36,238 nt of DNA from positions 1-36,238 of the forward strand of contig JAPUKB010000106.1 in the NCBI GenBank assembly GCA_027295865.1, in the 5' to 3' direction. The notes beneath the pieces are model-generated. The model was given only the letters and a program-made list of their open reading frames with translations, was not told the DNA's origin and ran no database searches. Below, one piece after another: positions 8,224 to 36,238 of this stretch (position 1 is its first letter; every line of letters begins with the position of its first letter). The DNA comes from Nitrososphaerota archaeon (GTDB taxonomy: Archaea > Thermoproteota > Nitrososphaeria > Nitrososphaerales > UBA57). Made by a program: the position numbers and the translations under genes.

Positions 8224-9187
8224 ACTTCCCTTCTCGTGACCTCTCGACAAGATCAATCCGTTGCCAGTCAGATACGACATTCCTCATTTGACATACAGAA
8301 CAAACAACCCCAGAGGTTGGGAATCCGCACTCCGCGCACAAGTTGATCTCCCTCTGCTGGACGTTTTCGATGTTGCTCGCCACTTTGAGGACTGATCTGA
8401 GACCGATATACTTCATTCCAGGGTGGGCCCTCTCAAGTTTGTTCAGTATCTCCCTCATTTCGGATCTTATGCTTTCATTCATATGAGGGCATGTCTCAGA
8501 TTGTAACGGTAAATTGTTGGTGAATGCGTAAAACGCGATCTCCTCTTCGTATATCTCCATGAAAGGTTTGATTCGTCTGAAAGCAAAATCAGTGTTGTGT
8601 TTGATCGCTGGATCCATCCATCTAATCCTTTCCACATCACCGCTGAATAGATTCATGAGAAAAGTCTGAAGGAAATCATCGAGATTATGACCCGTCGCAA
8701 TTACATCTGCTCCAACCTTTTGTGCGCCTATCTCAAGTGCCCTCCGACGAAATGTTCCGCATACCGTGCATGAGGCGATTCTCTTTCCCTTCCTTTTTTC
8801 TAAAACGTCGTCGAGCCCGGTTCCAAATAGCTCCTTAAACGAGACAGTAATCTGCTTCACCCCCAGCCGGGAAGATAACTCAATCGCGTTCTGAATCGCC
8901 TCGTCTCGATACCCCTCAACCCCCTCATCGACCGTTACAGCGAATAATTCTGAACCGTGCGGAATAACTATCTTGCTCAGCACATGGAGGAGAGAGAGGC
9001 TATCCTTCCCGCCTGACACTCCAACGGCCATCTTAGTACCATACTCGAGCATACCGAACTTTGAGATGGTCCTCCGTGTCTTCTCTATGATTGAATGAGA
9101 ATAGCATGGGGAGCAAAGTTTGACCCCCGAATATCTTCGCCCATACACTGCCCCCTTACCACATTTACTACACGGCCTTTCGTTCAT
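8216..9187 (-). CDS. tRNA 2-thiolation enzyme, TtuA/Ncs6 (Ctu1) family
   Basis: A 323-residue PP-loop ATPase of the group that adds sulfur at C2 of tRNA uridine or thymidine. Motifs: N-terminal zinc site C6-x2-C9 and C25-x2-C28, PP-loop SGGKDS at 58-63, C140-x2-C143 with C233 (the three cysteines that hold a [4Fe-4S] cluster in TtuA), GHNLDD at 166-171, and a second zinc site C284-x2-C287 with C296-x2-C299. Whether the target is U34 (Ncs6) or U54 (TtuA) cannot be decided from sequence alone. A TATA-like box lies 27 bases upstream of the ATG, so the transcript is probably leaderless. Confidence 0.9.
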   Translation of the reverse strand: MNERPCSKCGKGAVYGRRYSGVKLCSPCYSHSIIEKTRRTISKFGMLEYGTKMAVGVSGGKDSLSLLHVLSKIVIPHGSELFAVTVDEGVEGYRDEAIQNAIELSSRLGVKQITVSFKELFGTGLDDVLEKRKGKRIASCTVCGTFRRRALEIGAQKVGADVIATGHNLDDFLQTFLMNLFSGDVERIRWMDPAIKHNTDFAFRRIKPFMEIYEEEIAFYAFTNNLPLQSETCPHMNESIRSEMREILNKLERAHPGMKYIGLRSVLKVASNIENVQQREINLCAECGFPTSGVVCSVCQMRNVVSDWQRIDLVERSREGKSH

Positions 9188-9210
9188 CCAAGTATCCTGG
9201 GCGGAGAGCG

Positions 9211-9217
9211 TAAATAG
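9211..9217 (-). promoter_or_regulatory. TATA-like element of the ncs6/ttuA gene
   Basis: Minus-strand CTATTTA centred about 27 bases upstream of the ATG at 9187, in the short divergent gap with marC. Spacing fits a leaderless transcript. Confidence 0.4.
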
Positions 9218-9221
9218 GTTT

Positions 9222-9863
9222 ATGGTTCAAGGTCCGAAGACCAAACTGTTGCTACCCCCCGACCCACTGCTAGATCAGAACTTGCTCCTCTTTCTACAAT
9301 CGCTTTTCACGCTATTTGCTATTTTTGATCCAATAGGCAATCTCCCAATTCTCTTCTCTTTAACTTCTGATATGGGGGAGGCCGAGAGGAAAAAGCTCGT
9401 ACGTAAGTCATCTCTTGTTTCTTACGGCATCCTCTTGACTTTTGGTTTTCTTGGCGAGCTGCTCTTCATCCTTTTAGGAATCACGATTGCGGATTTCAAA
9501 GTAATAGGAGGAATAATCCTTCTCATCTTCTCGATTGAATATGTACTAGGGAGAGGATCGTTTAGAGTTCATGAGAGAGGCCCTAATGAAGACCTAGCAG
9601 TTTTTCCATTGGCTACCCCCCTTCTTGCGGGACCTGGTAGCATAAGTTTCGTAGTTCTGATGCCGGGCTTCCTCACCAAATTCGTTGTTGTTACACTAAT
9701 CGTCGCCATATCTTGGTTCATTTTGCACTTCGGGACTGGTCTTCTCAGATTCTTTGGGCCGCAGGGATCATCTGTAGTATCAAGAATCATGGGTCTTTTG
9801 ATTGGTGCGGTTGCGATCAGATTCATTAGAGAAGGCTTAATTGAGATTCTACTAATGGTGTGA
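9222..9863 (+). CDS. MarC family integral membrane protein
   Basis: A 213-residue, mostly hydrophobic protein with about six membrane segments. MarC-family features: LFAIFDPIGNLPIL near the N-terminus (the DPIGN signature of the first helix) and PLATPLLAGPGSISFVV in the middle, then the last helix MGLLIGAVAIRFIREGL. The family is widespread in bacteria and archaea; its transport substrate is not established. The frame stays open to 9120 but would overlap the divergent ncs6 start, so the ATG at 9222 is chosen. A few residues more or less at the N-terminus are possible. Confidence 0.88.
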   Translation: MVQGPKTKLLLPPDPLLDQNLLLFLQSLFTLFAIFDPIGNLPILFSLTSDMGEAERKKLVRKSSLVSYGILLTFGFLGELLFILLGITIADFKVIGGIILLIFSIEYVLGRGSFRVHERGPNEDLAVFPLATPLLAGPGSISFVVLMPGFLTKFVVVTLIVAISWFILHFGTGLLRFFGPQGSSVVSRIMGLLIGAVAIRFIREGLIEILLMV

Positions 9864-9900
9864 GAATCTGCGCCGTCATGTTTTCATCTCATTCGTCATC

Positions 9901-10764
9901 TTGAGCCTCCTTATCCATTCATCTTTTGGCAGACAGATCGGGAACTCAGAAGGCCAAGTCGAAGCCGATTTTGAAACAGTGGACATTAAGGTAATTGTTT
10001 ACAGGGATGGTGTTTCAGTGATAAGCCAAAACATCACCGTGATCGACATTGTTCCACAGGTAAGTGTAGGCCTACTATCGGTGGAGGCAGAGAACGTATT
10101 GGTGGGAGACGAAGTCGGCGCTCCCCTGGGATACCAGATCCGCAACCGGACAATAATAATTGACACTCTTGGTGCCACTAGTGTATTTATCACCTATCAA
10201 ACCACCCAACTGACAGATAAGGATGGACCGATCTGGAGTTTTAATCTTAGCCTCCATAATCCTGCGAGTATAATTCTTCCAGATAGATCAACGATCGTCT
10301 TTCTTAATGAGATCCCTGATTCCATTACCACTCTTCAAAACAGAACCGCCCTGTTTGTCGGAGAAGGGGATTGGCTCATAAAGTATATTCTGCCTTTACA
10401 GATCATACCAGGGCAGGGTGAAATCGATTCAGTCTCCAGATCTGAAGATCCTTTCGCATTTGTCAACAATAACCTGTTTCTCCCCGTCATTGTCGCTGCC
10501 ATTATGATTAGTGGTATTGCTATCTATATTCGCAGGTCCGGGCGGAGCCTTCGTCATGCTTCAGTGAATCTTAGACCAGAGGAAGAAGAAGTACTCAGAT
10601 TCATCAGGGAACAAGGTGGAATGGTCTTGGAGTCGGAGTTGAGGAAGAAGTTCATTCTGCCAAAGACCAGTATGTGGCGGATGGCAAAGCGACTCGAAAG
10701 AGCCGGCCTAGTCAAGATCAACAGAGTCGGCCTCCAAAATGAAATTGAACTCGTTAGGCGGTAA
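9901..10764 (+). CDS. membrane-anchored winged-helix transcription regulator
   Basis: Domain order: an extracellular beta-rich domain of about 185 residues with several N-x-S/T sites, one membrane helix (about 190-209, FLPVIVAAIMISGIAIYI), and a cytoplasmic winged helix of about 65 residues (RPEEEEVLRFIREQGGMVLE, then SELRKKFILPKTSMWRMAKR). This layout matches archaeal membrane-associated one-component regulators, which sense outside and bind DNA inside. The only ordinary start is TTG 9901, which cuts a signal peptide in half. Reading upstream in frame to a CTG at 9868 gives LRRHVFISFVILSLLIHSSF, a convincing signal peptide. The true start may be that CTG, four bases after the marC stop. The sensed signal is unknown. 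Confidence 0.75.
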   Translation: MSLLIHSSFGRQIGNSEGQVEADFETVDIKVIVYRDGVSVISQNITVIDIVPQVSVGLLSVEAENVLVGDEVGAPLGYQIRNRTIIIDTLGATSVFITYQTTQLTDKDGPIWSFNLSLHNPASIILPDRSTIVFLNEIPDSITTLQNRTALFVGEGDWLIKYILPLQIIPGQGEIDSVSRSEDPFAFVNNNLFLPVIVAAIMISGIAIYIRRSGRSLRHASVNLRPEEEEVLRFIREQGGMVLESELRKKFILPKTSMWRMAKRLERAGLVKINRVGLQNEIELVRR

Positions 10765-10807
10765 GTCCCGCGAGATTTGACCACTATCTCTAATTACATG
10801 GAGACTA

Positions 10808-11182
10808 ATGCGTAGCTCATTGGGAACGAAAATTACTGGAAGGCTCGTGTTCTCCACCTATCGCACCAAGAGGGAGGCATCAAAGATTGCTCGCAAGGCT
10901 GTATCCGACAGACTTGCAGCTTGTGCTAACATCTTTCCTATATATTCAATCTATGCCTGGGAAGGGAAAATAGAGGAGGGAATCGAGGTTATGGTTCTCT
11001 ACAAAACCACCTCAACAAAACTGAGACTGTTACGACGCTATATCCGAGACTCACACGGCTATAGAGTCCCAGAAATCGTGGACCTAGAAATGAAAAGTGT
11101 CAATAGGAGTTACCTGGAGTGGCTGGTCTCCGCAACATCATCGGACTCGGGAGTACCTCAGCAACGCCACAACACCGCCTAG
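10808..11182 (+). CDS. cutA: CutA1 divalent-cation tolerance protein
   Basis: A 124-residue protein with the CutA1 pattern: VFSTYRTKREASKIARKAVS, the LAACANIFPIYSIYAWEGKI core, EVMVLYKTTSTKLRLL and HGYRVPEIVDLEM. CutA1 is a stable PII-like trimer linked to copper and other divalent-ion tolerance in bacteria, but its biochemical role remains uncertain. The last 45 bases overlap the 3' end of the facing pelota gene, so the tail after the conserved core (SGVPQQRHNTA) is probably non-conserved. A GGAG lies just before the ATG. Confidence 0.92.
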   Translation: MRSSLGTKITGRLVFSTYRTKREASKIARKAVSDRLAACANIFPIYSIYAWEGKIEEGIEVMVLYKTTSTKLRLLRRYIRDSHGYRVPEIVDLEMKSVNRSYLEWLVSATSSDSGVPQQRHNTA

Positions 11183-12202
11183 CGATTCTATCTGTTTGCC
11201 TGCGTCTGTGGAATTGTCCACTAAAATGGTCTTTCCCCCGAATTTCTCGACAGAGTTCAGTAGTTCAACAACTTGTTCCTCGTTTCCAGTCTCAAATATT
11301 TTGCTCGATACAAGTAGAGACTCCACCGACCCTACGGTACTTGCCTCGTTGCTCTCTTTCACAGAGAATGTTACTCTAGTATCATCCTGCGATATTCTGG
11401 CGATTGCTGTCGCCAGGAGCTCTTGAGCACTCGCGAGCGTTGTATCTTGCATAATCTGCCTCAGTTCCTTAGATCTGAGAGAGGTGAAGACGCCATCCTC
11501 CCCAGTGACATCAAGTCCATCAATTACCAAAACCTCCCGGGCAATTTCTTTGTCTGCTCCCTCTATGAAATTAGCTAAAGCTTTCTTTACTTCACCGGGG
11601 CCGACACAGACTATCTTTACACCCTTTTCGTAGATATTTTTTATCGAATTCGTAATCCTAGCAAGATACGCCTGAATGGATACATTCTTGGTTGTGTATA
11701 GTTTTCCTCCTAGGCCCGAGTTAATCGTGGGGAAGATCTTCAAGTGAGTGCCTATCACCTTCCCGATCCCAGCTTCTCTTCTGTCTAGGGCCACTATTAT
11801 GATTCTGTCTATTGGAGACGAGCTCTTCTTCAGAAGGCTCATGTGAAAGTCGGGAAATACATCCTTTCTTAGCGCAAATGTGTTTCCTAGTGAGAGTGTG
11901 AATGAGTGCCGCGAAGATTTTGTGACGAAATTCTCCGAAACATCAAGAATCTTGCCCGAGACCCTAAGGCGGTCAATGCTGCTGTCCAGCTTAACCTTCT
12001 CAACCTCTATGCTCAGCCTTACCCTAATTCTTTCCCCTTTATCCGGTCTTGCGAAGTCGTTGTTTTCCTTGATGACCCTGCTTGTATCTCCCGTAAGGAT
12101 ATCATCTGGTGAAATTATTCTCCTAAGCGTCCAAAGGTCTTCAGGACTTTCTGGTGTGATTGTGGCTAGTCCTGGCCTTCTTTGGAGCCGATGGATTCGC
12201 AT
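11138..12202 (-). CDS. pelA: Pelota, mRNA surveillance and ribosome rescue factor
   Basis: A 354-residue protein matching archaeal Pelota. It has an Sm-like N-terminal domain (about 1-125: LQRRPGLATITPESPEDLWT, then ISPDDILTGDTSRV), a central RNase H-like domain, and a C-terminal domain ending GGVVALLRYSRVR. It resembles release factor aRF1 without the GGQ motif, as expected. With aEF1A (or ABCE1) it splits stalled ribosomes. It follows dnaG by 18 bases on the same strand and is likely co-transcribed. Its 3' end overlaps cutA. Confidence 0.93.
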   Translation of the reverse strand: MRIHRLQRRPGLATITPESPEDLWTLRRIISPDDILTGDTSRVIKENNDFARPDKGERIRVRLSIEVEKVKLDSSIDRLRVSGKILDVSENFVTKSSRHSFTLSLGNTFALRKDVFPDFHMSLLKKSSSPIDRIIIVALDRREAGIGKVIGTHLKIFPTINSGLGGKLYTTKNVSIQAYLARITNSIKNIYEKGVKIVCVGPGEVKKALANFIEGADKEIAREVLVIDGLDVTGEDGVFTSLRSKELRQIMQDTTLASAQELLATAIARISQDDTRVTFSVKESNEASTVGSVESLLVSSKIFETGNEEQVVELLNSVEKFGGKTILVDNSTDAGKQIESLGGVVALLRYSRVR

Positions 12203-25517: not shown

Positions 25518-26468
25518 GTGAGTTTAATTAGGGTTTACGCTAGCTCTGCTTTGGCAATCTGGCTCCTTTTCGCATTACTAACGGCGGGTTTTCTTCCTAC
25601 AGCTTTTGGTCAAGCTGCATCGCCTGCGATAATAACCGATCTCGTCGTGAGGGATCCCAATGGGAACGACGTGTCAAGTGAGCCGTTGGTCGCCGGAGGT
25701 GAATATACCGTAACATTCTCTATTGCCATTGGTGCCACCCTTGTTGATCGGATATTGTTAACCACAAACCTAGAACGTACCAGGGACGTGTTTTGGACCC
25801 TGGAAAGCAATTATGATGGCGTCGACTTAAACACCTGGACCCCAGGTTCCCCGGCCATTGACTTCGAAGCTCGGAGTGGAACCGCAGACTTCACACTGAC
25901 GGGCCGCATACCTGAGTTCATAACGGAGAAATTCTGGGACGAGAATGGAAGGACCATACACGCCATACAGCGATTTCAACTCCTGATTGTCTCGCTTGAT
26001 TCGAACAAAGAGATACTAGATCTCCGAGAGGCATCAATCACGGATCAGATAATCATCCGTTACGGTAATTTGCTACAGGAAAAGCGGACCATACTCGATA
26101 GCGTCCAGATGGACCCTCAATATGCAGCTCTCGCCCGAAGCATATTAGCTGAATCTGAGGGGTTGACGGCCGCGGGCTATTATGATGCGGCGATAACATT
26201 ACTCGAAAGTATCCCAAGCTCAGGGTTTCCTACACCGCCGGTGGTGACAAACATCTTTCTGGGATCGACTCTTGGATTGGCCGCAATTTCTGTTATCCTG
26301 GTGCTACTCTTTCTGAGGGCCAATCGAGGAAAGGGGTTCATTTCAAGACGCGTGGAAGATGAGGCTAAGAAGCTTGATTTATTACTTGTGAAAGCTACAA
26401 GAGTTGATAAAGCTCTTTCGACTGAGATTGAAACCATTAAAAGGGAATTACAGAATCTAGTTGAATAG
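25518..26468 (+). CDS. type I membrane protein with signal peptide, beta-rich ectodomain and cytoplasmic coiled coil
   Basis: A 316-residue protein not recognised by family. Residues 1-31 are a signal peptide (ALAIWLLFALLTAGFLPTAF, probable cleavage near FGQ-AA). Residues 33-190 are beta-rich, Ig-like in feel (IITDLVVRDPNGNDV, GGEYTVTFSI, GTADFTLTGRIPEF), followed by a helical stretch (EKRTILDSVQMDPQYAALAR). One membrane helix lies at about 244-266 (FLGSTLGLAAISVILVLLFL), then a 40-residue charged helical tail inside (EDEAKKLDLLLVKATRVDKA). It is the first gene of the cluster, 14 bases before the tubulin-like gene. It may anchor that protein to the membrane through the coiled-coil tail; this is inference. 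Confidence 0.7.
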   Translation: MSLIRVYASSALAIWLLFALLTAGFLPTAFGQAASPAIITDLVVRDPNGNDVSSEPLVAGGEYTVTFSIAIGATLVDRILLTTNLERTRDVFWTLESNYDGVDLNTWTPGSPAIDFEARSGTADFTLTGRIPEFITEKFWDENGRTIHAIQRFQLLIVSLDSNKEILDLREASITDQIIIRYGNLLQEKRTILDSVQMDPQYAALARSILAESEGLTAAGYYDAAITLLESIPSSGFPTPPVVTNIFLGSTLGLAAISVILVLLFLRANRGKGFISRRVEDEAKKLDLLLVKATRVDKALSTEIETIKRELQNLVE

Positions 26469-26482
26469 TGATCAGTGATTAG

Positions 26483-29185
26483 ATGGCAAATTATGCAAGC
26501 TCAATCCAGCTCGTGGGATTAGGAGGTACCGGCGCAAACGTTATTGAAGCGTTCGTAAGAAATCGGAAGGCCCTAATTCCCCTTTTGAAGAAAGAAGGGG
26601 TCAGAGTTTCGTTGCTTGCTCTGGACGTGGCAGATCATGACATCCGTAGTCTTGAGGCCGCCTATAAGAATCTCTCAGACCACCTTAAAGAAACTGGAAT
26701 CCCTGCGGATAAGATTAACCTTGTCGCAAAGACTGTGAAATTTCCGACACCGGAGACGATGTTCGATTTTGTTAGTAACTATCCGGAGTTCCTTGAAAGA
26801 GAAGGGGCGAAGGTTCCTGAAAATTATTCACCTTGGCTGACGTCGTCAATGGAAATACCACCACTTGCTGGAGGGGTCGGCCGAAAACGCGCTCTCTCGA
26901 AAGCTATCTACGGACTGAATTATCATCACCTTAAGCTCGTAGATAGCTATATGGATCTTTTCAAAGAACACGTATTCACTTCAACCCTTCAACCGATAAT
27001 TTTTCTGATCTACGGGTTTGGAGGAGGGACCGGGAGCGGAATAGCGCTCGATTTTACAAGACACTTGAGGAAGAAGGTTGGAAGCGGAATTCCAATAATC
27101 GGTCTAGGAATCCTCCCATGCGGAGGAGATGATCCACCTGCCAAAGGCGCTTCATGCTACGCGGCGCTAATCGAGCATGAGATGCTAATATCAAGAGAAC
27201 ATAACCTGCGTGTCACTAATGCATATTCTAAAGCCTATCAGAATCCATTTACTGCGATGCTGATGATGCCTTTGGGTCCGGCTTACAGTCGGACTGGGAG
27301 CGTGGTGGATGCACGAAAGCTCATTGATGACGCTATCGTCGATATACTTATGAAATCTTTGAGTTTCGATCTCGCGGACCTATTCAGCAACATCGGATCG
27401 AGTGTTGATCTGGGAGGTAAATGGGTCCATTTGATTTCGACCCTCAAGGTATCTTATCCAGTAGCGGAATTTATTGAGCTTACCAAGATCTACCTGGAAA
27501 AACTTGAGAGACTACGAGAGTTAAGACGGGAAAAGACGGAGATCTATGCTGGGCCGTCACGCGAGGAAGATGGAGGATTGCACAAGATACTATCCTCGTG
27601 CCTAGACGAGTTGAAGGCCGTCTACAAGAGACTCGCCATAGAACGAAATACATATGATGAGGTTAAGTTCGAATCAGATCTCAAGAATTTTATCACAGAG
27701 GGAAGGTCACTAGAGTCTGATCTTGTTATGCACTTGAAAGGCGTTGAGGAATCGGTAAAGTCTCAGGTGCAAGATCTTTCTCGGTCCGTGTTGTCGATCG
27801 GATTGGATGCGCCCGAGGGGACGGTTGAGGCAAGGATTAGGATGTTAGTTGAAGAGATTGTCGGATTAACTACTAACATTTCTCGGACATATCAGAAATT
27901 CCAGAGCCGTGTTAAAGACATTGCAGAAGACCTGCGAGGAATGGTTCCGAGCGCGCAGCAGCTGACCCCTCGTCAAGTTCAGATACTCAATGACGCCGTT
28001 GGTCTCGTTGAATTGATAGACAGGTACATAATTGGACTTAGGTTATACCTTCAGACAAATAGTCTTGCAGATAAGCTCAACAAGCAGCTAGCAAAAGCGG
28101 AAAAGACTGAGTTACACCAAGAGCTTGCAACGACAGTCCAAAGAATCCTCAATCCAGAACTTGTAATAGACTTTGCACTTCTTTCCTCCCTCCTATACCC
28201 AGTTGCTTCGGAGTTGAAGACTCTCGATTCTCGACTCAGTGATTGTAGAGTCATGAAGAGAGTCCTCACGGAAAGACTCGAGAAGCAACGGAATGAGGTA
28301 GAGTCATTGGAAATTAAGCAGAAGAGTAGGCAGCTCGAAATGGACAGGATTAGTGGTCAAGCCAGGAAGATTCGGTTTGGTTTCCTCGGTCCGAAGAAGA
28401 AATACATGGAAGGTAAGGCTAAGGAATTGGAGCACGAGATAAGAGTCCTCACAGCAGAGGGTGAGGTAGTTGTCGGCGAAAAAGAAAGATTAGAGACCAA
28501 GTTAAGCGAATATGGTCACGTTGAAAGCAAATTTGACGTAAACTCAACGTATAGAAAACTTGTCGCTGAAGCGCACAGCCTGGACGGGACATATTATGAG
28601 AAGATGAGCGCGTCCATGAAAGATAGGGGCTACTATGACAGAGTTGCGGAATTAACTGATGTCGAACAAATGAAAATCATGCAGAGGGTCCTAATGGAAG
28701 ACGAGGATTCTCTTACTGATGAAAATATCCTCAGAGAGATTGTAGACAGACGACACCTCAAGGAATATCTGGTCGGCGCCTTGGGCATTTTCAAGATCCC
28801 AGCGACACTTGGTCTAACTCCTGAATACCGAACTGATTACATTTGGTTCACCGTCGTGAGCCCGAGGGGCATTTGGGACAAAGACCTGGAATCTGAGTCA
28901 AAGGCCATACTCTCAGGCTACGTTAAACAAGACGCCTCGAAAAGTATCTACATAAGAGAAGTAGACTCTGACGATCCGTGGACAATGCGCTTCTTGATAA
29001 TTGCTGCTAAGGCCACCCCAGAGCTCCTAGAATCATACAAGGAAATGTCCATCCTTTATGGACAAACTACGCCGGGAGAGAGATTGCTTTCACACTCATT
29101 CCTCCTTGAACAGGGCGTCCATGTAACCAAGGGGGGAAAGACTACGCCAGTCATAACCCTTGAAGACACAAATCGGGCTGTCTAG
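26483..29185 (+). CDS. tubulin/FtsZ-superfamily GTPase-like protein, 900 residues, with coiled coil (FtsZl/Tubulin_2-like)
   Basis: The N-terminal 320 residues carry tubulin-superfamily motifs in order: glycine loop QLVGLGGTGANVIEAF (12-19 core), LLALDVADHD, a GGVGRKRA segment (130-137), the nucleotide loop GFGGGTGSGIALDF (GGGTGSG at 180-186) and a T7-like SLSFDLADLFSNI (FDLAD at 295-299; the two aspartates D296 and D299 match the catalytic ones of FtsZ NxDxxD). Residues 320-575 are helical, 575-680 a strong coiled coil (LTERLEKQRNEVESLEIKQK), and 770-885 a folded C-terminal domain. The canonical FtsZ C-terminal peptide is absent. It fits the diverse FtsZ-like families associated with membrane remodelling rather than division FtsZ or CetZ. 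Probably polymerising GTPase. Confidence 0.8.
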   Translation: MANYASSIQLVGLGGTGANVIEAFVRNRKALIPLLKKEGVRVSLLALDVADHDIRSLEAAYKNLSDHLKETGIPADKINLVAKTVKFPTPETMFDFVSNYPEFLEREGAKVPENYSPWLTSSMEIPPLAGGVGRKRALSKAIYGLNYHHLKLVDSYMDLFKEHVFTSTLQPIIFLIYGFGGGTGSGIALDFTRHLRKKVGSGIPIIGLGILPCGGDDPPAKGASCYAALIEHEMLISREHNLRVTNAYSKAYQNPFTAMLMMPLGPAYSRTGSVVDARKLIDDAIVDILMKSLSFDLADLFSNIGSSVDLGGKWVHLISTLKVSYPVAEFIELTKIYLEKLERLRELRREKTEIYAGPSREEDGGLHKILSSCLDELKAVYKRLAIERNTYDEVKFESDLKNFITEGRSLESDLVMHLKGVEESVKSQVQDLSRSVLSIGLDAPEGTVEARIRMLVEEIVGLTTNISRTYQKFQSRVKDIAEDLRGMVPSAQQLTPRQVQILNDAVGLVELIDRYIIGLRLYLQTNSLADKLNKQLAKAEKTELHQELATTVQRILNPELVIDFALLSSLLYPVASELKTLDSRLSDCRVMKRVLTERLEKQRNEVESLEIKQKSRQLEMDRISGQARKIRFGFLGPKKKYMEGKAKELEHEIRVLTAEGEVVVGEKERLETKLSEYGHVESKFDVNSTYRKLVAEAHSLDGTYYEKMSASMKDRGYYDRVAELTDVEQMKIMQRVLMEDEDSLTDENILREIVDRRHLKEYLVGALGIFKIPATLGLTPEYRTDYIWFTVVSPRGIWDKDLESESKAILSGYVKQDASKSIYIREVDSDDPWTMRFLIIAAKATPELLESYKEMSILYGQTTPGERLLSHSFLLEQGVHVTKGGKTTPVITLEDTNRAV

Positions 29186-29229: not shown

Positions 29230-31683
29230 TTGAGCGATCCGAAGATCATAGAACCAGATCAGACAAAGGATTCGCAGTCCGCATCTGTTATCGAGCGTTT
29301 TGGGCTACGACCATCACGCAGCATAGAGGATCCGATTGAGAGGGAACGCGAGTATCGCAAGACACTTGGACGACTCCTAATTTCGGCCCTTATTCTTCTA
29401 ACCACGACATTGCTTCTTCTGGTAATACCACTCTATCCTACTCCAGTGATTATTCTCTTTGGAATATTATCCGCACTCATTGGCTTTAGGGTTCCGATCG
29501 CCGGTTTCTTGATAGGGACGCTGGTATCTGCGCCGGCCTATGCATATCAAGCAGGTATTCCTCTCTGGTGGCTGTTCGTTTACATCTTCTTTATCGGCGC
29601 CTTCGCCGCCCGATCTGTGAGCGAGCCTCGAAATGTCATTTCCCCGCTGATGGGTCTTTTTGCAGGGGCGTTGGGTCTCACTCCATTGTACTTCGCAGCC
29701 ATCCCTCTTATGTTGATGGTTGCGCTACTCGAAGAGAGACGCAAACTGTTTGATCACCTGGGAATGGTTTTCATGTTTATCATGATATTCATCCCGTTCC
29801 ATGGCGTCGCCTTTTCCGAGAATTTGGTACTGACACTAGGCGACCAGATCAATTCAATGAGGCCTCAACAGATATACGACGCAATGAACGCTCTTCCTCT
29901 TCCACTCTTCACTCAGATCTTCTATACTCCGAATCCGTCCCTTACTTCTTTGGACATTCCAACGCTTCAAGCGACGTTCTCTTCCGCATTTGGAGCGAGT
30001 GAATTCTTCCATCCGTACTTATTCCTAATAATTGATAGGCTAATAATTCTCTACGTTCCCATCTTGTTAGCCCTATCCTTCTCCTTCATCTCAGTCGTAG
30101 ATCGCTTTTGGCCATGGTTAGTAGAACGGGGAATCGATGTTAGAAAGGTACTGAAATACTCATATGCACCTACTCTCCTAGTCGGAACATTCCTTTTTCT
30201 TGGCGCGTTACAAGCGACGAGTGGCACTCTTAGGTACTATACGAGTCTAAATCCGATCGCCACTGAAACGGCCGCCCTTTCCGGCGGCGTATCTTTTCTT
30301 GCCATAACAGTATCCGCAGTCTCGTTCGGATCGGCAATGGTCATCGGCTCGCTCAGATTGAGGAGAAGGGAAGAGGTTGCATTTCTCTCGTCAGGCCTAA
30401 TCTCGAAAGGGAGAAAATTGGCAGATAGCATTGCTTCATTTTTTACTAGTCTGAAGTTGATTGAAAGATCATCACCTGGGATCGACCTCTCTACAGAAAA
30501 TGCCTCCGCGAGTAAGTATCAGGAGCAGGTCCGAATCACTCTCGGTGGGATAGGCACTATGTCCTACAAAACCCTCCGGGAGAGAACTACTAGCCTATCG
30601 CAAATCAACGAGGAGCAAGAAAGAATTGCGTCTAGTACGTACCATCGGCTATATCAGTACCAGGTGGATAAAGTAGTGAAATATCAGAACGTCGTTTCTA
30701 CCATTACTCGGTTTGGAATTGAGCCTGGGGGCCTGCCGAACGTTAATTCAATTAGTGTCTCAGATCTTGCCGAGATGGGCCATGAGGAATCCCTCAAACG
30801 TCAAGAAGAACTGAATATCAAATTCCTCAAGGTTGCCGAGATAACAGTCGAGTTCGCAGCTAGGCTGATTGAGGCGATTAGGAAAGATTTTGACATCAAA
30901 TCAGATCCGACCGCCGTCGATGTAGCGAGAAACTTCCTTGCCGAGTCCGCCGGAGAGAGAGCCCTCGATCCGATAGTTACAAGCATCAGCTCGCTCAGTA
31001 ACCGATATCTCTCAGACAGTCATAAGATCGCCTCCAGTGTCCGAAAGCTTATACAGAGAATGCTCGAAATATACAATGCACATATTCTTCCCTTAAATGA
31101 ATCGCTAGGGAGGGAGGCCTCCGTCTCAAAGACTGCACAGGTCGCGATTGAACTCTCTAACCATGTTCATCAGCTGGAGAAACCAAAAGGGATTATCTAC
31201 CTCCCAGATATAATGCTCAAGCTTGAGTACCTCGAAATCGGGACAAGATCGATTCTTGGAGAATTATTGACCCTATTGAGAGACTTCGAGAAGCTCAACG
31301 ATTCGAGAGTATCTGAAGAATTCAACTGGGGGAAAAATACACAGCTTGTAGGTGACATAGATTCCTCCCTTCGTTTCCTTGATGACCAGGAAGCGAACGA
31401 AATAGACGAGCGGATAGATAACATAGAATACGTGATCAAGACTATAGAGGGAGCTGCGGCAACTCTCAAGAAGTACATAACCATGAATGAGTTCATCCTG
31501 AACTACCCAAATATGGAGCCTCTGATAATCTCAAAGCTCCATAAATCGGGTCATGTTAGTGCAAGGGAGCTACCAGTCCGACCCCGATATGCCTCACAAT
31601 ACCTCAAGCTATTCGCGATTAATCGCTATGGAGAGGTTGTCTTCGACAGCAAATACAGTAAGATACAGAGAAGAAAGAAGTAA
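29230..31683 (+). CDS. multi-span membrane protein with long cytoplasmic helical domain
   Basis: An 817-residue protein without a recognised family. A charged N-terminus of 45 residues precedes about eight membrane segments, near 49-68, 71-101, 112-127, 138-165, 175-192, 265-290, 311-330 and 348-376 (for example LLISALILLTTTLLLLVIPL). The loop 193-262 is probably outside. From 377 to 817 it is hydrophilic and mainly helical, with heptad-like stretches (INEEQERIASSTYHRLYQYQ and DERIDNIEYVIKTIEGAAAT), so a cytoplasmic scaffold is likely. Start is TTG. Its TAA directly abuts the stop of the facing PH-like gene. In context it may connect the tubulin-like filament to the membrane. Confidence 0.7.
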   Translation: MSDPKIIEPDQTKDSQSASVIERFGLRPSRSIEDPIEREREYRKTLGRLLISALILLTTTLLLLVIPLYPTPVIILFGILSALIGFRVPIAGFLIGTLVSAPAYAYQAGIPLWWLFVYIFFIGAFAARSVSEPRNVISPLMGLFAGALGLTPLYFAAIPLMLMVALLEERRKLFDHLGMVFMFIMIFIPFHGVAFSENLVLTLGDQINSMRPQQIYDAMNALPLPLFTQIFYTPNPSLTSLDIPTLQATFSSAFGASEFFHPYLFLIIDRLIILYVPILLALSFSFISVVDRFWPWLVERGIDVRKVLKYSYAPTLLVGTFLFLGALQATSGTLRYYTSLNPIATETAALSGGVSFLAITVSAVSFGSAMVIGSLRLRRREEVAFLSSGLISKGRKLADSIASFFTSLKLIERSSPGIDLSTENASASKYQEQVRITLGGIGTMSYKTLRERTTSLSQINEEQERIASSTYHRLYQYQVDKVVKYQNVVSTITRFGIEPGGLPNVNSISVSDLAEMGHEESLKRQEELNIKFLKVAEITVEFAARLIEAIRKDFDIKSDPTAVDVARNFLAESAGERALDPIVTSISSLSNRYLSDSHKIASSVRKLIQRMLEIYNAHILPLNESLGREASVSKTAQVAIELSNHVHQLEKPKGIIYLPDIMLKLEYLEIGTRSILGELLTLLRDFEKLNDSRVSEEFNWGKNTQLVGDIDSSLRFLDDQEANEIDERIDNIEYVIKTIEGAAATLKKYITMNEFILNYPNMEPLIISKLHKSGHVSARELPVRPRYASQYLKLFAINRYGEVVFDSKYSKIQRRKK

Positions 31684-32661
31684 TTATGCCAGGAAACTCG
31701 TTTCTCTCAGAGAATCCTGCAACGCATCCATGAGATATACGTTAAATTCGGATGCCATCTCCGCAAATCGCGCTTCGTTGCCTTCCGTTTTCAGATCCTT
31801 GAAAAGATCTTGGCTGAACTCGACCCCAAGAATAGGGATAAGCTTCTTTGCACTCGACAGAGCAGTCTGTTTCTCGCTTTCGAGTGCGTTCTCCTCAAAT
31901 GCAATACCCTCATTGACAGCAAGGGAAAAGAGGAAGAGGTAGGAGAGGGAATCCCAGTTAGGATTTTCCTGGTGGATGTAATCTTTCCATTCGCTTGCAG
32001 TAGGAGTAGTGGAGCTCAACTGATTCCCCACTCTATCAAGGAACCCGGAAATAGCTTCACCTACTTTTTCCGGCGACCTACTCTCCACCGATGTCCTTAT
32101 TAGATCTATTTCGTTGCTGAAATCGAATGAGTTCTCTTCTGAAAGACTGGCCGTTGTTCTTGAAAGCCTCTCAAATATGTCCTCTGCCCGATCCCAATCC
32201 TCAAATCCAAGGCCTCGCAACATGGACAGGGAGAGTGAAGTCAATTCCCAGACTTTTGACCCAGTGTCCAAGACGTACGAGAGGTATTTTGCTTTCGCCA
32301 TTTTCGAATCCTTCTCAGAAAGTTCGCTCTTATCTCTAATCAATTTCCTTTCACCTAGCATGGACGAAATAGTCTGGACTATCTCAATCGCATCAGTTGG
32401 ATTATTGGGAGTCACTTTGTGAGAAATAGTTTCTTTCTTCCCCTCATGAACTATCTTGACTCCGAAATCCTGAAGTTGCTCAACCGAAATGAGTGCCCGT
32501 GCATCAATTGTAACCTCTGAGATAACCTTGCTCGAGAGGATTCCTTTTTTCTTCTCAAAAATAATTCTTCGATCAGTAAGTACGAGCCGCCCCATACCCT
32601 TGCCTTCTAACTTGACTGACTCGTATTTTGAGATGATCCGCTCTGGAGTCTCGGAGCTCAC
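31684..32661 (-). CDS. PH-like domain protein with C-terminal helical domain
   Basis: A 325-residue protein. Residues 1-110 show the beta pattern of bacterial/archaeal PH or GRAM-like domains (GRLVLTDRRIIFEKKKGILS, then VISEVTIDARALISVEQLQD and GVKIVHEGKKETISHKV), the LTDxRIIF signature being typical. Residues 115-325 are helical and acidic, probably an interaction domain. PH-like domains of this kind bind membranes or proteins. It is the only minus-strand gene between the two tubulin-like genes, with a GTG start 27 bases from a TATA box. No catalytic motif is seen. Confidence 0.65.
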   Translation of the reverse strand: MSSETPERIISKYESVKLEGKGMGRLVLTDRRIIFEKKKGILSSKVISEVTIDARALISVEQLQDFGVKIVHEGKKETISHKVTPNNPTDAIEIVQTISSMLGERKLIRDKSELSEKDSKMAKAKYLSYVLDTGSKVWELTSLSLSMLRGLGFEDWDRAEDIFERLSRTTASLSEENSFDFSNEIDLIRTSVESRSPEKVGEAISGFLDRVGNQLSSTTPTASEWKDYIHQENPNWDSLSYLFLFSLAVNEGIAFEENALESEKQTALSSAKKLIPILGVEFSQDLFKDLKTEGNEARFAEMASEFNVYLMDALQDSLRETSFLA

Positions 32662-32754: not shown

Positions 32755-34119
32755 ATGGCGGCCGAACAGGTCCATAAGGGAGGATTCACACTTTGTCCCA
32801 GTGGGCATAAGAATGCTAGAGGGCTCGCCACGTGCGCAATATGCTCCCTGCCCCTCATTGAGTTTAAAGAGGAGTTGGCTTCGGCCGTAAAATTGATTAG
32901 ATCTCTGACCGCTGTTTTTTCCCGATCTAAGGAGGTTGTCAAATTTGGGCTCGGAGGCGCAGGATCTAAGCTCCTTCTCAATCTCGTTGCTGGTCAAGCG
33001 AATAGAGTTTCGTCGATTAATTTTCTGGCCATCGGAGCAGATGAGGGGGATGAAAAAGTCTTCAAGGACTGGTTATCCGAAGTTCATACCGAGGATGAAA
33101 CCGACAGAATTTACAGGACAGGACTTCATCGACTGAAAAGGTCAAAGGACAAGGGAGGTGGTGTCTGGAGCAGCACTTTGAAGAGTGCTACGAAAGACAA
33201 ACAACTTGATGATAAGATTAGGCGGATAGGCATCAGCGAAAGCGTTGAAGAACAGATTTCGATCTTCTTCGCTCCACTGGGGGAGAATATCACATCTGGT
33301 GTCGGGCCGCTTATCCTTGCGAAGATTAAGAACATAAACCCTGATGCATCAGGAATCGTCTTCGCCATCTTGCCCTCTGAAGAGGATACCGATCAGACCC
33401 ACTTCAATGCCTACTGTGCACTATCGCGCTTCCTAAAATCCGATGAACGCCTTGCCGACATTTTGATAGTTTCACAGGGAGACGCACTTCGAAAAATGAT
33501 TGGTATTGATAGGTCCGGGCGGAGGCTAAGTTCAGATATTCTTATCCCGCGTATCGTAGATCTCATCTTCGGACAAAATGAAGTAGACTTAGCAGAGATG
33601 GTACGACTTGCCCGATCATACAGAGTGCAAGTATTCTCTCCAGTCTACGCGTACGGAAGGAGCTACGAGATCTATGACAAGATCGGAAATATCCTCGATC
33701 ATGCGATCTCTTTCCCCCTCTCGCCTTTTGATTATGATTCAGTAGTCTTGAGCATTGCTATTGCAAGAGTGCCTGAAAAGATCGTAGACAAAGTCGGGGA
33801 GAAGCGACTTCAAGAACAGTTCAATGAATGGAATCGAAAGCGATTTCCTGTCCTCAAGGGAACGTCTTTGAAGGTTGTAAGGGTTAATGAAAACTCTGAT
33901 CGAATCGACGTACTCCTGCTTCTCGGGGGATCAAGCATATCAGATATTATCAGGCCACACAAGGATCCGTACAAGAGGTTCAGAGCCTATATCGAAAACC
34001 TTGACCTCTGGGGTGAATTTGCTCTCACCGAAGATCAATTAAAGAAAATTCAGAGCGGAATAGATACCTATGATAAGGGGATGGCAAGGCTGATACGTAA
34101 GACCGCTTCTGCTACTTAG
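32755..34119 (+). CDS. zinc-ribbon plus degenerate FtsZ/tubulin-like protein
   Basis: A 454-residue protein. Residues 14-30 form a zinc-ribbon-like site C14-x3-H18-x8-C27-x2-C30 (CPSGHKNARGLATCAIC). Residues 60-330 look like a tubulin-superfamily domain: VVKFGLGGAGSKLLLNLVAG (glycine loop at 65-72), LAIGADEGDEKVF, then APLGENITSGVGPLILAKI, where the usual GGGTGTG is replaced by GENITSGVG (176-184), and QNEVDLAEMV (near 274-283), where one T7 aspartate remains and the second is Glu. It probably does not hydrolyse GTP normally. A C-terminal beta-rich part follows. With the intact 900-residue relative it suggests an active/degenerate pair. The stop overlaps the facing gene by 8 bases. Confidence 0.65.
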   Translation: MAAEQVHKGGFTLCPSGHKNARGLATCAICSLPLIEFKEELASAVKLIRSLTAVFSRSKEVVKFGLGGAGSKLLLNLVAGQANRVSSINFLAIGADEGDEKVFKDWLSEVHTEDETDRIYRTGLHRLKRSKDKGGGVWSSTLKSATKDKQLDDKIRRIGISESVEEQISIFFAPLGENITSGVGPLILAKIKNINPDASGIVFAILPSEEDTDQTHFNAYCALSRFLKSDERLADILIVSQGDALRKMIGIDRSGRRLSSDILIPRIVDLIFGQNEVDLAEMVRLARSYRVQVFSPVYAYGRSYEIYDKIGNILDHAISFPLSPFDYDSVVLSIAIARVPEKIVDKVGEKRLQEQFNEWNRKRFPVLKGTSLKVVRVNENSDRIDVLLLLGGSSISDIIRPHKDPYKRFRAYIENLDLWGEFALTEDQLKKIQSGIDTYDKGMARLIRKTASAT

Positions 34120-36238
34120 CCCGACGTCCCCCAACCTCCATGATTCTGGACAATCCTCCCTGAACGCCAATCGCAACTGATCCGACTATGGCTAGAACAG
34201 AAGTCGTTATCAAAGCTACGGTAGAATCAGATCTGAATAGGTTTACGCTCACAATTAGGTCTCGGTCGGATACCAGTCTGGTTAGCCGCTGGGATTCTCC
34301 TCGATATCTCACGGTAACTTCATATTCACCTGGAACTAAATTAGTGAAAGTACTCTCCTCACTTACCCTGGTGTTGTTTCCAAGTGGTCCCTGGACCACA
34401 AGATCTGCACGGCCAATTTTCTGATTGAATGGATCCCTTATGTCGACTGTAAGTTTATAGGTCTTCAGATAGATTAATAGAACCCGTTCTGACATTTCAA
34501 TCGTTCCGATTTCCTCGCTATGTTCGTAGCTCATTCGAATGACTACATCGAGGCCCATGTCGATGACTTCAGCATTGGCAATCTTGCCATCTAAGACGAC
34601 CAATATTCTATCTAAGCTGGAGTCTATCTGATTTATGAGAGACTTGGAAAACGTTATGTTTATTGTACCTATAGTCCCTTGGCGGCCGCCAAGAGTTAGA
34701 CGCAACGCGTCTATCCGCTCCTCCACTCGCTCTTCAAGAATTGTAGAGTTTGAAGAGAGATAGATTATCTGATCTGGAGAAAACTGAACTTCTTGTACTT
34801 GGGTTATGAGGAATCGGTCTGGCTCTCCCGAAGACATTGATGAGGTTATCCTGTGCTCAGCTCTGGTCTTGGTAACTAGCGATGATTCCATAGAGCTTAG
34901 GATTGGCGTCCTTGTCGAAAGCCTTAGAACGTTTAGCCGATAGTCAAGACCTAGCTGCCCCTCAACAATCAGCGATATATCGCCGTCTTCGAAACCTTCT
35001 TCAACTAAAATTAGTTGCCCGACCGGTGCAAGAGTTTTTACATCCGTGGACTGTGGATCGAATGGTGTCCAGAGGAAGGAGAAAGGTATGCCACTGGCTA
35101 CAACATCCTCTCCAGAGATAATGTTAATTTCGACGAGTCCGTCAACAAACAACAAATACCCTGTCAGTTGTTCAGTTGCCATCATTCTATAATCCTGAGT
35201 GATATCGAGGAGCTGACCATCGTAGGTGATCGCCGTGAGCACCCCGCCCCAGGCTGGTAACAGATCGTAGACGAATTTTGGGTCAGTCAGCAAAGAATCA
35301 ATGTTCTCTGGTAGAGCAGCCCCTTTCCCATCTAAAAGTCCCAACATTGGATCAACGTGGACCCAGTCTTCTAACTTTATCTCTACCCAAGAATGGGCGA
35401 GGACAAAGGGCTCATCGAGAAGAGGGGAGGAATTCATAGCACCTATTACGGGACGAGCCTCGATCTCGAGGGATCTCATTAAGCCCCCAAACAGAATTTG
35501 AAATGTCGTAGAGTCTCCCTCTATCAAGTGAGTTCCCTCGACTCCCCCCCTGGCTTCGAGTTCTGAGATCATGCGCACGACATCTCTTTGGGGAAGGATC
35601 TCTTCTGAGAGGCTACTATGGCTCAACACAAAATCCAGGATCGCTCGGGCCTGCTGCATTTTCGAGGAATTGGCACTCAGACTGTTTGCTACAAGGATCC
35701 GTTCTGCAAATTCTCTAACACTCTCATCGGGCTGCATTAGTAGATCTATATTCGGTAGGAATTTAGCGCCTATCGCCATTCCGATTGCCCGGACTCTATT
35801 CTTCTCCTCAACGGAAAAGACTCGTAATTGGACAGAGATGGTGTCAGGCCCACCCGCTGTTTCTTCTATGAACACCTCGAAAGTTACCAGGCCTTCCCTG
35901 GCATAGAGCAACTCAAAGCCCACGGTTCTAGTCTCCCCAGGCCCCAGAAAGATGATTTGCGACGTCGGGAAAACTGTAACTCCATCAGAATTCCTAGTGA
36001 GGAGCTTTATCTCTCCCGCTCGTTCTATTGTGTTTGCAACTGTCACCCACGCATAGGTCGACTCGCCCTCAAATGCCGTTTTGGATTCGGTGACTTCCAG
36101 ATCTATGATTCCTACTTTTGGCAAGAGAACAAAATGAGCAGTAATCACTAAAGGTCCATCTACAATTATGCGAACGGGATTATCCTCACTCGTATTTCCA
36201 TCAAAAATCCAAAGACTGAAAACATAATCACCTATCCT
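34112..36238 (-). CDS. large surface protein with transglutaminase-like domain (Ser in place of the catalytic Cys), 5' truncated
   Basis: The frame is open to the right edge, so the N-terminus lies outside the window; at least 708 residues are present. Numbering from the GTG at 36148: residues 1-112 are beta-sandwich-like (GETRTVGFELLYAREGLVTF), 140-270 a transglutaminase-like domain with EGDSTTFQILFGGLMRSLEI (S213 where the catalytic Cys is expected), HSWVEIKLEDWVHVDPMLG (H252, D266), then more beta domains and a carboxypeptidase-regulatory-like segment (ADLVVQGPLG ... NLVPGEYEVTVRYRG). A C-terminal membrane helix (about 640-662, TVALITTSVLAIVGSVAIGV) and a short basic tail follow. Likely an outside-facing anchored protein. 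A catalytically inactive or binding role is inferred. Confidence 0.65.
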   Translation of the reverse strand, partial: RIGDYVFSLWIFDGNTSEDNPVRIIVDGPLVITAHFVLLPKVGIIDLEVTESKTAFEGESTYAWVTVANTIERAGEIKLLTRNSDGVTVFPTSQIIFLGPGETRTVGFELLYAREGLVTFEVFIEETAGGPDTISVQLRVFSVEEKNRVRAIGMAIGAKFLPNIDLLMQPDESVREFAERILVANSLSANSSKMQQARAILDFVLSHSSLSEEILPQRDVVRMISELEARGGVEGTHLIEGDSTTFQILFGGLMRSLEIEARPVIGAMNSSPLLDEPFVLAHSWVEIKLEDWVHVDPMLGLLDGKGAALPENIDSLLTDPKFVYDLLPAWGGVLTAITYDGQLLDITQDYRMMATEQLTGYLLFVDGLVEINIISGEDVVASGIPFSFLWTPFDPQSTDVKTLAPVGQLILVEEGFEDGDISLIVEGQLGLDYRLNVLRLSTRTPILSSMESSLVTKTRAEHRITSSMSSGEPDRFLITQVQEVQFSPDQIIYLSSNSTILEERVEERIDALRLTLGGRQGTIGTINITFSKSLINQIDSSLDRILVVLDGKIANAEVIDMGLDVVIRMSYEHSEEIGTIEMSERVLLIYLKTYKLTVDIRDPFNQKIGRADLVVQGPLGNNTRVSEESTFTNLVPGEYEVTVRYRGESQRLTRLVSDRDLIVSVNLFRSDSTVALITTSVLAIVGSVAIGVQGGLSRIMEVGGRRAK

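Follow-up and report, generated by a model that had tools for sequence, protein, structure and literature searches.

FtsZl1 systems (described in 2010), paired tubulins and a degenerate thaumarchaeal FtsZ (Nmar_1262) are already known from the tubulin superfamily. Phage TubZ and CetZ have intact nucleotide loops and are self-assembling. Chloroplast ARC3, a plant protein with MORN repeats, contains an FtsZ-like domain that is reportedly without GTPase function and regulates FtsZ assembly; its link to the protein described here is claimed at the level of the superfamily only. In the 2010 description, FtsZl1 (Tubulin_2, PF13809) is surrounded by many genes for membrane and secreted proteins, and its H7-T7-H8 region could not be identified (Makarova and Koonin, PMC2875224). 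No worked-out mechanism for FtsZl1 systems was found in the literature since that description. Two tubulin folds that are encoded near each other and divide functions between them occur in alpha/beta-tubulin, Asgard AtubA/AtubB, the Heim alpha/beta pair (PMC13394414, PMC13371889) and BtubA/BtubB. The catalytic glutamate of alpha-tubulin, E254, completes the GTPase site of beta-tubulin, which itself has a lysine at this place (PMC13394414, PMC13371889). The FtsZ of Nitrosopumilus maritimus, Nmar_1262, has an altered T4 loop (AGKAGSA) and showed no polymerisation in yeast (PMC3684127).

The window analysed here is a stretch of 36,238 nucleotides that forms contig C9 of a 1.28 Mb Nitrososphaerota genome. 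The nearest named record is the Thaumarchaeota MAG JACZWF010000073. The window carries a four-gene cassette composed of a secreted membrane protein, an FtsZl1 protein, a multi-TM protein and a zinc-ribbon pseudo-GTPase of the tubulin superfamily. The genes of this region were as follows (here and below, f numbers denote lineages and G numbers genomes):

25518..26468, plus strand: cassette protein 1, secreted or anchored, with a signal-like N-terminal helix and one TM segment near residue 246 (hydropathy); beside FtsZl1 in f1, f7, f9, f11, f12, f25 and f31
26483..29185, plus strand: partner FtsZl1/Tubulin_2 protein, 900 aa, with intact T1, T4 and T7 and a coiled-coil middle (PF13809, invariance, model)
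29230..31683, plus strand: cassette protein 3, with some seven TM helices at the N-terminus, followed by a long TM-less remainder (hydropathy); conserved beside FtsZl1 or the pseudo-GTPase
31684..32661, minus strand: bPH-like protein, 325 aa (PF14470 only at E 0.04), conserved in f1, where its gene separates those of cassette protein 3 and the pseudo-GTPase
32755..34119, plus strand: zinc-ribbon pseudo-GTPase with a tubulin fold, 454 aa, from ATG at 32755 to the stop at 34119 (open reading frame, homologues, AlphaFold2, Foldseek, dN/dS)
34112..36238, minus strand: extracellular transglutaminase-like protein (PF01841, E 1.6e-6), cut by the contig end, convergent with the pseudo-GTPase gene and syntenic in f1

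In f1 relatives the transglutaminase-like protein is about 1,450-1,480 aa long, and a full-length relative has a Big_1-like (Ig-like) domain.

The AlphaFold2 model of the pseudo-GTPase, with the family alignment as input, had a pLDDT of 84.8 and a pTM of 0.81, with lower confidence in the ribbon and in the linker up to residue 57. Foldseek gave 1,070 matches in the PDB at E<=0.001, headed by beta-tubulins (E 6e-16, TM 0.60-0.64) and with CetZ among the top fold matches. The alignments spanned about 450-470 columns, which is most of tubulin, so that they cover both the nucleotide and the activation domain; the last elements of the model are two long helices. AlphaFold2 and Foldseek together predict a two-domain tubulin fold, present in residues 60-330, where the first-pass annotation had expected it, and beyond. 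Pfam family PF00091 matched residues 61-249 (E 2.6e-4) with 21.8 bits, below the gathering cut-off of 33, and a full-length homologue in genome G029 scored above the cut-off (47.2 bits, E 4e-12); membership of the PF00091 superfamily is therefore assigned by homology and fold. A profile of 13 family members matched PDB chains of TubZ, Asgard tubulin, BtubB, FtsZ and CetZ at E 6e-8 to 2e-5, the best being TubZ (4xcq and 3v3t, 6e-8), Asgard tubulin (1e-6) and BtubB (3e-6). The relation to tubulin exceeds chance. TubZ (4xcq, 3v3t) and CetZ (3zid, 4b45) match the protein in sequence profile or fold but are without a zinc ribbon. The pseudo-GTPase did not match PF13809 and has no coiled-coil insert, which places it outside FtsZl1/Tubulin_2.

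Motifs of the pseudo-GTPase and its partner were located as follows:

32794..32844, plus strand: zinc ribbon of the pseudo-GTPase, C14, H18, C27 and C30 (family conservation)
32947..32970, plus strand: T1 loop of the pseudo-GTPase, GLGGAGSK, residues 65-72; of canonical form in this protein but changed in most f1 relatives, that of the same genus among them
33280..33300, plus strand: degenerate T4 phosphate loop of the pseudo-GTPase, GENITSG, residues 176-182, with acidic E177 (comparison with homologues)
33586..33597, plus strand: putative T7/H8 motif of the pseudo-GTPase, D278-L-A-E281, in model helix 276-288; DLAE resembles DLTE of alpha-tubulin (E254)
27020..27040, plus strand: T4 loop of the partner, GGGTGSG, residues 180-186; G180-G182, G184, S185 and G186 invariant in 17 sequences
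27365..27382, plus strand: T7 of the partner, FDLADL, residues 295-300, with acids D296 and D299; F295, D296, D299 and L300 invariant in 17 sequences

The T4 register of the pseudo-GTPase is gapless and anchored by a downstream proline (LGGGMGSGAAP in intact homologues, LGENITSGVGP here). The T4 signature [SAG]GGTG[SAT]G is absent, and the protein was therefore filed as a pseudo-GTPase relative and not as an FtsZ or tubulin. Within the family, only f5, f7 and f12 have a near-canonical T4 (GGGMGSG or SGGTGSG), and the loop is eroded in the other lineages. In f1 the loop reads [GS]E[NGPT][IL][TVA][SA][GA], where Glu replaces the second glycine in 9/9 members, and in f25 it reads [WS]DG[VFI][GS]SA, with an acid at this place in all seven readable members. 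Five held-out f25 members (WDGFGSA, WDGVGSG twice, WEGVGSA and WDGVASA), which were found later and played no part in forming the idea of an acid in T4, all carried an acid at the same place. It is very probable that the pseudo-GTPase no longer has a GTP-binding loop, and a negatively charged phosphate loop would be hard to reconcile with the binding of a triphosphate. The first-pass annotation had recognised the degenerate T4, its GENITSGVG extending two residues past the loop, and had called the N-terminal glycine loop intact; GLGGAGSK is indeed canonical but peculiar to this species, the same-genus relative having GFGRTGSK and others GLGLWGSK or GIGDFGSQ.

The same annotation proposed a fused zinc ribbon, which is genuine: the pattern C14-P-x-G-H18 ... 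C27-x2-C30, with all four ligands, is invariant in the 13 order-level members, and CxxGH...CxxCG is also present in three aligned members of the eroded f9/f11 form. With two conserved metal-ligand pairs (C14/H18 and C27/C30), a zinc ribbon is predicted from sequence. Homologues in f25 and f31 are without it, and the ribbon is thus not essential to the partnership with FtsZl1.

The partner matched PF13809 with E 2.9e-10 and 40.4 bits (cut-off 27) and has the N-terminal GTPase domain, long coiled coil and C-terminal domain of FtsZl1, with long helices at approximately 327-712 in the model (pLDDT 77.6; Foldseek CetZ2, E 1.4e-4). T1 was intact in every FtsZl1 sequence with a complete N-terminus. 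An intact relative of the pseudo-GTPase, as previously suggested, is thus encoded nearby, with T1, T4 and T7 all preserved, but it is not adjacent: it is encoded 3.6 kb upstream, and two genes intervene. In the FtsZl1 model an H7-like helix (274-292) is followed by the invariant FDLADL, a candidate T7; helix and motif would be the H7-T7-H8 region missed in 2010. A C-terminal segment at about 775-850, with the order strand-helix-strand-strand, could be a displaced activation domain. A profile comparison between the C-terminal domains of the two proteins, which bears on an activation domain split by the coiled coil, found nothing.

A clear homologue of the pseudo-GTPase was present in 13 of 101 related genomes of the order: nine in f1, and the remainder in f5, f7 and f12. 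An eroded form (alignment A2) was present in six genomes of f9 and f11; A2 aligned with the family by hhalign at a probability of 95.7 (E 1e-8), and its profile independently found two f1 members (E 1e-7 and 3e-6). Outside the class, the ribbonless f25 homologues were found at E values down to 1e-48, and f31 carried a very eroded form. A contig scan with the single sequence found the same-genus genome only. No relative was detectable in the viral contigs searched, where the fold matches were phage tubulins. None of the genes neighbouring the weak profile matches in G353, G486, G520 and G428 was recognised as belonging to the cassette, and these genomes were left out of the carrier counts. In G428 four neighbouring ORFs (locus L113, 2666-6592, minus strand) were weakly matched by the profile, a possible tubulin-like array.

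The cassette grouping recurs in several of the phylum's lineages: f1, f7, f12, f9, f11, f25 and f31. In f31 and f11 the four genes form one same-strand run, overlapping or abutting. In f25 the pseudo-GTPase gene is on the opposite strand, between the FtsZl1 and multi-TM genes. In f1 it is a transcription unit by itself and diverges from the bPH gene, an arrangement that counts against the pairing with FtsZl1 proposed below. FtsZl1 was present in all 13 order-level carriers and in 9/9 strong carriers of the phylum sample; the two genes were on different contigs in G004, G013 and G461. Three phylum genomes were first seen with FtsZl1 alone: two of these (f31) have an eroded pseudo-GTPase, and one (G366) has no cassette. 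Locus L126 of G366 (8408-11290, plus strand) encodes a 960-aa FtsZl1 relative that is not part of a cassette; the next ORF resembles a Cdc6/Orc-type AAA ATPase. By Pfam and layout the partner is an archaeal FtsZl1, and its surroundings are likewise full of genes for membrane and secreted proteins (PMC2875224). Unlike those systems, the cassette genes that were scanned here include none recognisable as vWA, P-loop GTPase, kinase or OmpA. Lineages with intact T4 (f7, f5 and f12) have an extra protein of 181-211 aa beside the cassette (L042:9845-10441, minus strand; L053:635-1180, minus strand; L045:5206-5841, plus strand); in f7 this protein weakly matches a double zinc ribbon (PF18912).

Against the same-genus genome, dN/dS was 0.129 for the pseudo-GTPase and 0.064 for FtsZl1 (partial gene). 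By region it was 0.168 for the nucleotide domain of the pseudo-GTPase and 0.088 for the C-terminal part, values that come from one genome pair and are indicative only. The C-terminal part was better conserved than the nucleotide domain in 6/6 f1 comparisons (e.g., 41.8 vs 32.4% and 53.0 vs 40.8%); in the ordinary FtsZ-type proteins of the same genome, the nucleotide domain was better conserved in 4/5 comparisons. The pseudo-GTPase is under purifying selection, and more strongly so in its C-terminal part than in its nucleotide domain. This is the pattern expected if the protein gave up nucleotide and kept its lower face.

The T7 stretch of the pseudo-GTPase reads N275-E-V-D278-L-A-E281, its second acid being a Glu, in a register derived from the resemblance of the motif and from where the helices of the model begin and end. 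Aligning profiles with alpha/beta tubulin did not confirm this register. Glu or Asp occupies this position in most of the family, f25 included. The Glu had been noted at first pass as a degenerate second T7 aspartate. The residue is there, but alpha-tubulin E254 is also a Glu and the family is mostly acidic at this place, and by this analogy the Glu need not mean decay; since it matches E254, it would argue for an alpha-like action on partner GTP and not for degeneracy.

As a protein that has very probably lost its GTP loop has stayed beside an intact, distantly related FtsZl1 for a very long evolutionary time, the two may pair, with only one of them using GTP. As a pseudo-GTPase and core part of an archaeal FtsZl1 membrane apparatus, the protein would hold no GTP, and its C-terminal/T7 face would dock onto the GTP face of FtsZl1. 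E281 would then be placed at the FtsZl1 GTP as alpha-tubulin places E254, and hydrolysis would be triggered or timed. With an upper face that carries no nucleotide, the result would be either a single-GTP-site heterodimer or a filament-end cap. In lineages having the ribbon, and only there, the ribbon may serve as an adaptor that tethers the protein to another cassette component, with the multi-TM protein and the bPH protein as candidates. The whole apparatus would act at the membrane, perhaps in its remodelling, as proposed for FtsZl1 systems generally. Of the readings considered, this pairing and mechanism is the most likely, with about even odds of being right. Catalysis in trans faces the objection that FtsZl1 has its own T7 acids and on sequence grounds would need no partner for hydrolysis. 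Nor could it be a universal role, because genus g3 of f1 has Asn or Ser at the T7 acid position and the motifs are untraceable in the f9/f11/f31 homologues. A more specific form of the proposal is put forward tentatively, as possible: a two-tubulin machine of archaea in this phylum, in which a conserved acid in the phosphate pocket would keep the pseudo-GTPase nucleotide-free while it activates or caps FtsZl1, and which would have arisen independently of alpha/beta-tubulin and gone further.

The main rival is a scaffold or adaptor, in which the fold has been repurposed and makes no longitudinal tubulin contact; the protein would bind either the coiled coil of FtsZl1 or the multi-TM protein, with the ribbon as a recruiting module. 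As this rival would have it, f9/f11 and f31 have lost T1 and T4 completely and have nonetheless kept the gene in the cassette, and the T7 acid is lost in g3. The gene order in f9/f11/f31, G029, f12 and f5 also speaks for it, as the pseudo-GTPase gene there directly follows the multi-TM gene and not FtsZl1. The full two-domain fold, however, and a C-terminal part that includes H8 are conserved in f1, and most lineages have kept the T7 acid. On this evidence the scaffold is rather unlikely.

A subunit with a fixed nucleotide, held permanently by the altered loop like the N-site GTP of alpha-tubulin, would fit the canonical T1 of this species, the FNA motif (residues 217-219), which is invariant in 13/13 order-level members, and the intact T4 of three lineages. 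It is nevertheless doubtful, as T4 residues 2-5 are replaced by Glu, Asn, Ile and Thr, the acid at the second glycine is conserved in f1 and f25, and T1 is broken in the sister species.

The pseudo-GTPase aligned with FtsZl1 by hhalign at E 1.6e-4 over 62 columns, and its family profile found the C107-type FtsZ-like protein at E 6e-7 in the same genome and 1e-9 in G015. These values do not suggest a tandem duplicate of FtsZl1, and the pseudo-GTPase appears closer to the C107 protein; the two partners are not the sister paralogues of an alpha/beta-type pair. Two further tubulin-superfamily genes are present in the genome, making four with the window pair: L051:4712-5875 (contig C107), with an intact GGGTGSG, and L052:5537-6583 (contig C51), with GGKVGSA, like the non-polymerising Nitrosopumilus FtsZ. 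On the FtsZl1 tree, whose branches are long and whose root is uncertain, the lineages with intact T4 were nearest to the outgroup and one T4 loss suffices. Several independent losses were not upheld on this tree, under the same long-branch warning. The closer profile match to the C107 type than to FtsZl1 would suit a regulator of the ordinary FtsZ-like proteins (C107, C51), acting in the manner of an assembly inhibitor and not on FtsZl1; gene neighbourhood and co-occurrence point to FtsZl1 instead and make such a regulator very improbable. A decaying copy on its way to a pseudogene, for which the lost signature motifs might speak, has a negligible probability and is ruled out by the dN/dS of 0.129, the full-length frames in relatives and conservation across families and classes.

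A pseudo-GTPase that pairs with FtsZl1 would resemble the alpha/beta-type pairs in the Glu at the T7 position of one partner. It would differ from them in that both of their subunits bind nucleotide and are sister paralogues, whereas here one protein has no phosphate loop and the partners come from distant families. The alpha/beta logic invoked at first pass thus holds for a degenerate loop beside an intact partner of the superfamily; it does not extend to sister paralogues or to a fixed nucleotide, as alpha-tubulin holds its nucleotide bound but fixed and the pocket here looks lost altogether. Because FtsZl1 keeps its T7 acids, the division here would be one of nucleotide binding and not of catalysis. 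Nmar_1262 (PMC3684127) is likewise a thaumarchaeal protein of the superfamily with an altered T4, but it looks like a separate family, represented here by the C51 protein (GGKVGSA), without a zinc ribbon and outside the cassette. In the accessible text of the 2010 FtsZl1 description (PMC2875224) there is no mention of a pseudo-GTPase tubulin with a zinc ribbon, and no description of the partner family was found in the literature searched, mostly open-access main texts.

It has long been asked why tubulins came to pair in such a way that their nucleotide sites are unequal. The family described here is a graded series in living archaea, with intact, half-lost and fully lost loops beside the same intact partner, and the steps from an active subunit to a pseudo-GTPase are therefore directly comparable and testable. 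FtsZl1 systems, in turn, gain a defined four-protein set for reconstitution.
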